A stretch of 64,000 nucleotides of DNA, taken from Tipula vernalis (taxonomy: Eukaryota; Arthropoda; Insecta; Diptera; Tipulidae). Below are positions 61,244-64,000 of this stretch, one piece after another (positions within the stretch are counted from its first letter, which is position 1; every line of letters begins with the position of its first letter). The notes under the pieces were generated by a model, which saw only the letters and a program-made list of their open reading frames with translations, had not been told where the DNA came from and ran no database searches. The position numbers were made by a program, and so were the translations under genes. The stretch spans positions 315,800,092 to 315,864,091 of the forward strand of contig OY282558.1 of the NCBI GenBank assembly GCA_958295665.1. Reading direction: 5' to 3'.

Positions 61244-61255
61244 CACTCAAAAAAA

Positions 61256-61920
61256 AAACTAGGTTATAATGATAAAAACCCGGATAAATTTAACAAAAAT
61301 TTGAACAATATACAGCACACAAAAATTTTTGTAAAATCTACAAATAAACAAAAATATTTATATTTATTACAAAAATTGATGAATAAATATCAAAAATATC
61401 TTTGTCAAAGTAATAAAAACTTTATAAAAAGTTAAAATAGTTCATAAAAGTTTATTTTAAAAATACAAAATATTTTGTTAATCTAAATAAAAATATATAA
61501 AAACTTAAATATTATTTTAAAAATTACAAATTATTTGTAACTTTCGAAAATATTTAAAAAAATAGTATAAAATATATTTGTTAAAGTAATTAAAAATCAG
61601 TAAAAACTTCAAAATTTTTATACACATTACAATTTTTTTGTAAACTTAATAATTTTTTTGTAAATAATACAAGCAACGTTTGCCTAATTATTAAAAATTT
61701 TATAAAAAGTTTAATCTTTTTTATATAAATTACAAATTTTTTGTAAATTTTTTAAACATTTTAATAAAAATACAAAAGAAATTGTCAACTTAATAAAAGA
61801 TTGTTTTACAATTGCAAAAGCGCACGATAAATAATACAAAACGAATTGTCAATCCTTAAAATATATTGATTAAATATAAAATACTTTTATAAATTCAATA
61901 AAAGGTTTGTTACAATTGAA
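61256..61920. repeat. Subterminal repeat zone of the second CACTC element
   Basis: Variants of ATTACAAATTTTTTGTAAA and AATAAAAACTTTATAAAAAG recur in both orientations every 20-40 bases. TTTTTGTAAA occurs near 61327, 61630, 61657 and 61738. It has the same style and length (about 650 bp) as the left end of the first copy, but the sequences are not closely alike. Confidence 0.65.
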
Positions 61921-61935
61921 AGAATTTTTGTGTTT

Positions 61936-62072
61936 TATATATATATATATATATATATATATATATATATATATATATATATATATATATATATATATAT
62001 ATATATATAAATATTTTTATATATATATATATATATATATATATATATATATAATATAATATAATATAATAA
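61936..62072. repeat. (AT)n microsatellite
   Basis: About 115 bases of AT repeats with AAATATTTTT interruptions, ending in (AATAT)n. It lies between the subterminal zone and the 3' end of the element gene. Confidence 0.95.
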
Positions 62073-62405
62073 AATAAAGAATGATAAAACAACAATTTTT
62101 CAACTTTAAACATTTATTTCGTAATATAAACTTATATATTTTGCTTATATAATAAATATAATAAAAAATTCAATAAAAATAAAAATAAAAGTGTATATAC
62201 ACTATTTTATGTTAAAAAAGTTATGTACATATTCATAAAAACTAAAACTAAAATTAGCAATGCCATTCTCTAAAATTAAAAATTTTAATAAAAATATAAA
62301 TCTTTAACAAAAATATAAGTTGCATACAAAAATTCAAATAAATTCTAAAATATTTAATAATAAATAAATCATAATTTAAACTAAAATTAAAAATAAAAAT
62401 TTCTA

Positions 62406-64000
62406 TTATTTTTCCAATCTTTCAATTAAAAATTTGACGGCTGTGTTATGCACGTCATGCTTAGTTTTTATTTTATAAAAATAATGCTGTATAAACATCC
62501 AGACATGGATGGATTCCAATGGGTATTTGAGGCAAAATAAAATGTCGATACATCTTAGTACCGAAAACATTTTATACTTGATGTTATCGAAATAAATCAG
62601 TATTTGTACTGGGTTACACAATGTTCCAGTTATTAAAATCAACGGTTGTATAGATTTATTCCGGCTTAGCTGGAACTGCAGTTTTTCCTCCAATTCTTCT
62701 GCAGTTGCCCCAATTAAAATACAACTTTTTTGGGCATCCTGAACGCTAAAGCGTATGTAAAGTTTTTTATTATTTTCCTGCCGTACTTCTCTCGCCGTTG
62801 GTTGCAAGACGTGATGAATTAAATAAAAAAGTATGGCTGCTTGTCCGTCTCAATCAGTTTTATATTAGGTTAAATAATTAACAAAGTAAATCTTTAATTT
62901 GCCTAATATTATTTAATTTTCCTAATATTGTTTTAGTTTTGAAATTTGGGCTAATGATTGGACTTACTTTCATTGTAATTATCTCTCGATTTAAGGACCT
63001 TAAGTAAATTTAGGTCTGCCGCTCCTTTCACCTTTTCCTCCAATATTTGAATTATTTTTGGTAAAAACTCCGGAAATGCCGTTTGAATTGTTGGTATACT
63101 GGTTATATGCTGATAATCCATTTCAATCTGCAAATGTAATTATTGATGTTTTTAATTAGTATATATTCCGAAATAATTCTTTTTGTTTAATAAGCTTACT
63201 AATTTAGAACCTAGAGGTTTCTTGTATTGTGGCCATATGGTTAAAATTTCTTCTGTCGAGACTGCGTTTTTTATGGATTTGATCCTGAAACCATAAGTGT
63301 TGCTCCAATGGTTTTCCAGTTCTGCCCAAGTACAATTATCGCTTCTTAATGCTTGGATGCTTTCCTGACAGTTGTCCTCCTGATTTTCTGGGAATTAGAT
63401 AATTAGAGAAATGTATTTGTTTATAATAAATAAATAAATAATAAATGAACTATATTTAATAAATTTATTGATTATTTCATATTTTTATAAATCATTACAT
63501 ACCTGTGGTCGTTCCATTATTCAATTCGGTTTCGTCGGCGACTGGTAATGGCTTCTTTGGTAACACCCCAACATTCCGTAATTTTCGGATTTTATTGAAA
63601 TATTTTGCATAGACTTTGCCTATTGGGGCTTTTCCCGGCTGTTTGAAGAAGTATATCACCTGGATAAGTATAAATATAAAAATGGAAAATATTTTTTTAG
63701 TTTGCCGCATCACATTTAAGGGATATTTTTTTAAATTCTTACTTTACTTTCCGTTTTGAACTCTACAACGATTTTATCCGCAATCGTTTCTGCCAATCCT
63801 ACCGACATTTTTATATTACATTTAATCAAAAAATTTATAATTAGGTCAACTAGCATTGAACGATGGCCGTCATTAAGGTTATTATTTGTGTTATAGTATT
63901 TTATTATGTATTGCCCGTCAATGGTTTCTTTTAAAATATTCATGACATTTACTGTATCCAGGTTTCGTTCGGAGCTAATTGGCGTTAAATTGGTAGACAT
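62406..64000 (-). CDS. Spliced gene carried by the CACTC element, unknown function (397 residues)
   Basis: Five exons on the minus strand: 64000-63743, 63659-63503, 63387-63200, 63127-62968 and 62836-62406, with GT-AG borders (GTAAGA, GTATGT, GTAAGC, GTAAGT donors) and compatible phases, 1194 bases in all, TAA at 62406-62408. Introns are 83, 115, 72 and 131 bases, a normal insect size. Exon 1 (residues 1-86) has GQYIIKYYNTNNN and AETIADKIVVEF. Exon 2 starts VIYFFKQPGKAPIGKVYAKY. Exon 3 has DNCTWAELENHWSNTYGFR. Exon 4 has QTAFPEFLPKIIQILEEKV. Exon 5 has FYLIHHVLQP, IRFSVQDAQKSCILIG, TGTLCNPVQILIYFDNIKY and YPLESIHVWMFIQHYFY. No DDE, zinc-finger or helicase motif is visible. The pattern of exon 5 reminds me of high-copy hypothetical proteins of other insects. 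The Met at the window edge may not be the true start, since the relic at 18346-18469 suggests another upstream exon. Confidence 0.75.

Follow-up and report, generated by a model that had tools for sequence, protein, structure and literature searches.

The gene described here lies near the end of a 64,000-nucleotide stretch of Tipula vernalis DNA (hereafter the window; G000:C1:315800092-315864091 of the 1.27-Gb assembly) and encodes a protein of the Pfam family DUF4769. The transposable element in which it resides is best explained as a member of the CMCT clade (EnSpm/CACTA, Mirage, Chapaev, Transib and allied groups) whose second gene is conserved. That the gene is an accessory gene of this transposon is close to certain. 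The overall interpretation, in which the DUF4769 gene is the second gene of a two-gene CMCT transposon, the window copy derives from a longer one by deletion and the mechanism is TnpA-like, was given a probability of about 0.8. Taken by itself, the TnpA-like action of the accessory protein is a tentative proposal based on analogy.

Linkage of the Accessory Gene to a Transposase

Long copies of the element measured 11-13 kb and showed the order CACTG/CACTC end, subterminal palindromes, transposase, accessory gene, second subterminal zone and GAGTG end. The transposase occupied a single frame of 831 codons, and the multi-exon DUF4769 gene followed about 120 bp downstream on the same strand. The two-gene model was built from one family of copies (family B), and further families were picked solely by the identity of their last accessory exon to that of the window gene. 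Four of the six picked families were sampled, with 3.2-3.3 kb each at the expected transposase position. The transposase was found on the accessory strand in all four, at last-exon identities of 44, 36, 38 and 41%. At locus L025, the C-terminus of the transposase lies upstream of the accessory gene. A same-strand second protein in the same element was present in family B, L025 and each sampled family. Because these longer relatives carry a RAG1-like enzyme directly beside it, a helper of the transposon is the most fitting reading of the DUF4769 protein. A preliminary description of the window had proposed either a new transposase family or an accessory or captured gene; the accessory alternative stands, with a separate transposase upstream in longer copies, while the new transposase does not. 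Recent capture is also disfavoured, the gene being instead a conserved second transposon gene with relatives in other insects.

The gene model P0058 (CVS40_11351) of Lucilia cuprina joins this transposase to DUF4769 sequence. It seems to be spliced into accessory exon 2 from a point in the transposase ahead of the BAH-like end, and if this splice is real, a fused protein could come from one transcript.

Transposase and Classification of the Element

Residues D317, D407, C427-C430, H632-H636 and E656 of the transposase were invariant in all 22 aligned members; their matching to the D/D/C(2)C/H(3-4)H/E signature of CMCT enzymes is our own assignment. Another candidate histidine pair, H500/H505, was dropped for H632/H636, which lies 20-24 residues ahead of E656. 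Structure modelling predicted a RAG1/Transib-like fold for the core and a BAH-like fold for the C-terminus, and a sequence search for a BAH domain gave no match in six C-terminal pieces. The 831-codon protein also contains two C2H2-like fingers. Four of the 22 relatives were recognised by the Pfam Plavaka profile (PF18759; E 1.5e-5 at best), a Plavaka domain having been on record for two of the 22 before selection, and the family B transposase had no Pfam match. Transposase_21 matched one of the 22 members weakly (E 0.0064). Sequence searches of the PDB with the single transposase returned mostly zinc fingers and a few other weak matches, and the best rows of the profile search were likewise zinc fingers. 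No text naming a transposase, a BAH domain and EnSpm together was found in the searched literature (Repbase and most subscription journals lie outside it).

One sampled locus, L040, contains at 1086-2504 (+) an open 472-residue frame in which the transposase N-terminus (to about residue 271) is fused in frame to the C-terminus (from about 594), so that both catalytic D residues and the CxxC are missing. As six accessory copies from the same family have almost equal scores, this form may be a spreading, catalytically dead transposase.

CMCT transposons are defined by D, D and E residues, the second D being separated from E by C(2)C and H(3-4)H; their termini are mostly 5'-CA..TG-3' and their target duplications 2-5 bp (PMC12730594, available part of the text). 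The present element combines the D-D-C2C-H3H-E order, CA..TG ends, 2-bp duplications and a predicted RAG1/Transib-like fold. Strict CACTA, Plavaka and Transib were each rejected as its class, since a tested defining feature of that group was absent. Transib transposons generate 5-bp target duplications, in contrast to 2 bp here; the likeness to Transib and RAG1 lies in the predicted core fold and the D-D-C2C-H3H-E order. RAG1 has RAG2 as its partner, whereas this transposase has DUF4769. Neither the CACTA core nor the 3-bp duplication of strict EnSpm/CACTA was seen at the element ends; CACTC and CACTG and a 2-bp duplication were found instead. The fungal CMCT group Plavaka has TGT..ACA or CATCA..TGATG ends (PMC12730594, available part), which were not seen here (CACTC/CACTG..GAGTG); the resemblance to Plavaka consists of the four profile matches mentioned above, which do not include family B.

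The plant CACTA/Spm system, with the TnpD transposase and TnpA, is alike in having a second protein encoded by the same element, CAC/GTG-type ends and repetitive subterminal zones. It differs in its CACTA end core, as against CACTC/CACTG, 2-bp duplications and a DUF4769 accessory protein in the present element. TnpA-like proteins are characterised by binding to subterminal repeats, a requirement in transposition and alternative splicing with the transposase; such repeats are present here. Spm transposition requires both TnpA and TnpD, according to the available part of PMC1636069. The same source describes SmTRC1, an animal CACTA element with 2-bp duplications, extra spliced proteins lacking a transposase domain and ends that begin with CCC. 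The animal host, duplication length and extra spliced proteins are shared with our element, but the CCC ends are not. In the available text, no similarity of the extra SmTRC1 proteins to sequences of other elements, animal or fungal, was found (PMC1636069); DUF4769, in contrast, recurs across families and insects. Two scans of viral contigs, which each used one or two short patterns as query, brought no confirmed relatives.

Accessory Protein

DUF4769 (PF15992), filed in Pfam as a family of unknown function, matched all four aligned accessory proteins at E<=1 (best 1.9e-7). Protein P0001 scored 24.6 bits against the curated cut-off of 23.9, and DUF4769 was the sole Pfam match above cut-off for the accessory protein. 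Database searches recovered one related protein with a single sequence and, with an alignment, seven in total; the named ones were from aphids. In the PDB, a sequence search gave no match and a profile search gave one ribosomal protein (E 0.11). Helices 68-114 of P0001 were predicted at modest confidence, and SAM chains appeared only among non-significant fold matches (best probability 0.28). From these matches and our reading of the sequence, a SAM-like N-terminus is tentatively proposed. No report of DUF4769 in a transposon was found in the searched literature, to judge by titles and the opening lines of abstracts. The sole mention of DUF4769/PF15992 found there comes, in the available part of the text, from a ladybird (beetle) genome, where the gene family is listed as expanded and its selection test was significant (PMC8805230).

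Element Boundaries and Subterminal Zones

Comparison of copies fixed the element at 61244-67008 (5,765 bp; minus strand in gene sense), of which 3,008 bp lie past the window edge; the part within the window, 61244..64000, is supported by copy comparison and TA flanks. The terminus CACTCAAAAAAAAAACTAGG was located at exactly 61244..61263 on the plus strand, where the preliminary description had placed it; its gene-sense reading is ...GAGTG, and other copies have similar ends. The far terminus, established from fetched adjoining bases and copy comparison, is at 67008 and reads CACTCAAAGAAATTTTAGTGG in gene sense. The lack of a GAGTG end within a few kb beyond 64000, which would have spoken against the element, was not encountered, since the far terminus was found at 67008. 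The near-side TA target duplication (61242..61243) is repeated after the far end, so that TA flanks the 5,765-bp element on either side. Insertion into a long interspersed nuclear element (LINE) reverse transcriptase was also borne out: reverse transcriptase motifs flank both sides once the element is removed, in different frames because the interrupted LINE is itself decayed.

The anticipated repetitive subterminal zone (61264..61925) contains quasi-palindromes ACAAA(N0-6)TTTGT, which exceeded expectation near both ends when each terminal 700-bp stretch was compared with 200 dinucleotide shuffles. Four were counted in the 700 bp at the 61244 end (shuffle mean 0.12; none of 200 shuffles reached 4) and two in the other terminal stretch (shuffle mean 0.26). 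Two further copies, M17 and J10, had 2 + 3 and 2 + 4. Density in element interiors was 0.35-0.69 per kb, and the motif was not seen in 3.8 kb of flanking DNA. A TA dinucleotide array whose length varies among copies occupies 61936-62068, in the gap that separates the subterminal zone from the last exon.

Copies, Families and Mobility

Searching the genome with the last exon yielded 1,830 first-look candidates. Scores were listed for 150, and 122 of these rows, counted by hand, had no stop. In ten family B copies the last exon matched the query exon at 99-100% identity, and each copy had a right flank of its own. Over longer stretches they were mostly >99% identical, with some pieces at about 96-97% near the right end. 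At the sequence level, these ten near-identical copies suggest recent movement. Four of the six copies with both ends had matching 2-bp target duplications (TA, TA, AA and CA). The ends were CACTC or CACTG...GAGTG in L009 (the window copy), J11, M17 and K14, and the last bases were GAGCG in J10 and GAGTC in J12. The expectation of a mobile element with CACTC...GAGTG ends thus held, with many copies and a gene that travels with the element.

Rates of nonsynonymous (dN) and synonymous (dS) change were estimated on the last exon alone (126-151 codons). Between families, dN was 0.23-0.55 and dS was saturated in six of eight pairs, with dN/dS of 0.18 and 0.29 in the remaining two; within families, dN/dS ranged from 0.17 to 1.05 (6 pairs). 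These values fit selection across transposition rounds followed by decay of single copies. Copies of family A, to which the window copy belongs, were decayed: L009 has a stop and a deletion, and J11 and J12 have nested insertions. By eye, the nested polyproteins, both on the opposite strand, are of long terminal repeat type in J11 (5400-9298; L011/L031) and of LINE type in J12 (7948-11781; L012/L032). Two inverted copies of one frame, which by eye resembles the beginning of a tyrosine recombinase, are nested in J10 (15635-16129 and 15957-16406; L010). Elsewhere, three last exons of the accessory gene form a tandem array with about 1.9 kb spacing and equal scores (G000:C2:283845646-283849845).

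Structure of the Accessory Gene in the Window Copy

The exon model was guided by the aphid protein P0001 (564 aa) in a splice-aware alignment, and six exons with corresponding borders were recognised in families A (L009, J10), B (J17) and C (L027). On the minus strand of the window, GT/AG modelling with this alignment placed exon 6, the last, with the stop codon, at 62406..62848, exon 5 at 62968..63127, exon 4 at 63200..63387 and exon 3 at 63503..63659. These are separated by intron 5 (62849..62967, selected by the splice-aware alignment), intron 4 (63128..63199) and intron 3 (63388..63502), and intron 2 follows at 63660..63742. Exon 2 occupies 63743..64000 within the window and 63743-64152 as a whole, and the recognised part of exon 1 lies beyond the window at 64240-64303, both placed by the alignment. 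The ATG at 64000 is therefore internal and not the start.

The preliminary description had counted five spliced exons with 397 codons. Minus-strand GT/AG joins and a single open frame were indeed found, but with at least six exons and 401 open codons in the window exons when the homologue-guided acceptor 62848 is used (398 or 397 with alternative acceptors). Nor is the gene intact as claimed, being open inside the window only: exon 2 has an in-frame TAA at 64070-64072, where J10, J11 and J12 have Q, and six residues found in these three copies are missing from the last exon. No transposase was found in the window copy. Upstream of the accessory gene and beyond the window, an open frame at 64381-64734 (L009 element 2275-2628) resembles, by eye, a second SAM-type segment.

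Proposed Mechanism and Alternative Explanations

In the proposed mechanism, the transposase would cut at the CAC/GTG ends and insert the element with 2-bp duplications. By analogy with plant TnpA, the accessory protein would use its putative SAM-like N-terminus to oligomerise on the subterminal palindromes and so let both ends pair; it might alternatively tune expression of the element. The window copy would be a deletion derivative that kept its ends and a decayed accessory gene; having lost the transposase, it could move only with enzyme supplied by other copies.

Several observations weigh against this interpretation. None of the four sampled families has a complete unbroken transposase within the stretch seen: L039 has one frame break and one stop, L041 is split into three frames and a separate N-terminal piece, L042 has one stop and extends past the fetched stretch, and residues 272-593 are missing from L040. 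The four A copies, L023, L024 and the B copy L018 yielded no transposase, and only residues 7-63 remain in L026 and L028. We read these loci as deletion derivatives; losses of transposase and accessory gene are not fairly comparable, because the loci were picked by the accessory exon. Matching duplications were not found in two of the six copies (J12 and K14). Palindromes in the interior were likewise more frequent than in shuffled sequence; the ends are thus where the motif is densest, without being its only location. The structure model of the accessory protein was poor (mean predicted local distance difference test score, pLDDT, 46), although helices near 169-230 and some of the C-terminal alpha/beta region were modelled better. 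Foldseek and VIA fold searches with it gave nothing significant, which says little about the true fold because of that pLDDT. DNA binding, oligomerisation and a TnpA-like role of this protein are inferred.

The main alternative keeps the gene in the transposon but makes its product a regulator or anti-silencing factor, which would control the promoter, counter host repression or modify the transposase without being part of the end complex. TnpA itself reactivates a methylated Spm promoter and represses an active one (PMC1636069, available part), and retention of the gene in families without transposase would suit a trans-acting factor. The present results agree with this role as much as with end binding; the palindromes, however, occur at both ends and not on the promoter side alone, and we regard this alternative as rather unlikely. 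Those transposase-less copies, such as family A, in which the accessory gene and both ends are present, could also suggest that the gene is a new transposase mobilising the element alone. This is scarcely credible and was rejected: longer relatives encode, upstream, a separate protein in which the CMCT catalytic residues are complete and a RAG1 fold is predicted, the accessory protein exceeds the cut-off for DUF4769 only, and the A copies are themselves decayed. The introns, and the annotation of named relatives as ordinary insect loci, would agree with a host gene family captured by, or merely adjoining, transposons. It is very improbable, and was rejected on copy number and linkage: one genome holds many copies in many divergent families, the copies are bounded by element ends, and order and strand relative to one transposase lineage are kept across families at 36-44% last-exon identity and in Lucilia.

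Biological Significance

With the two-gene CMCT transposon as the preferred reading, an identity is proposed for DUF4769 and for insect loci annotated as ordinary genes. Transposon copies could mimic the DUF4769 expansion and selection signal of the ladybird genome (PMC8805230, available part). A further addition is a transposase for which a RAG1 fold and a BAH-like end are predicted.

More speculatively, and in our view doubtful at present, there could be a large insect clan of RAG1-fold transposons with two proteins each: the enzyme would carry a BAH-like chromatin reader and a SAM/DUF4769 partner would organise subterminal DNA, as an independent counterpart of RAG1-RAG2. Vertebrate SAMD3 presumably resembles the accessory protein in its order of SAM and C-terminal regions. 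If such a clan exists, host proteins with this order could be domesticated transposon partners. As an animal system of CACTA type whose second protein is conserved, the element makes the need for a TnpA-like partner in animals directly testable.
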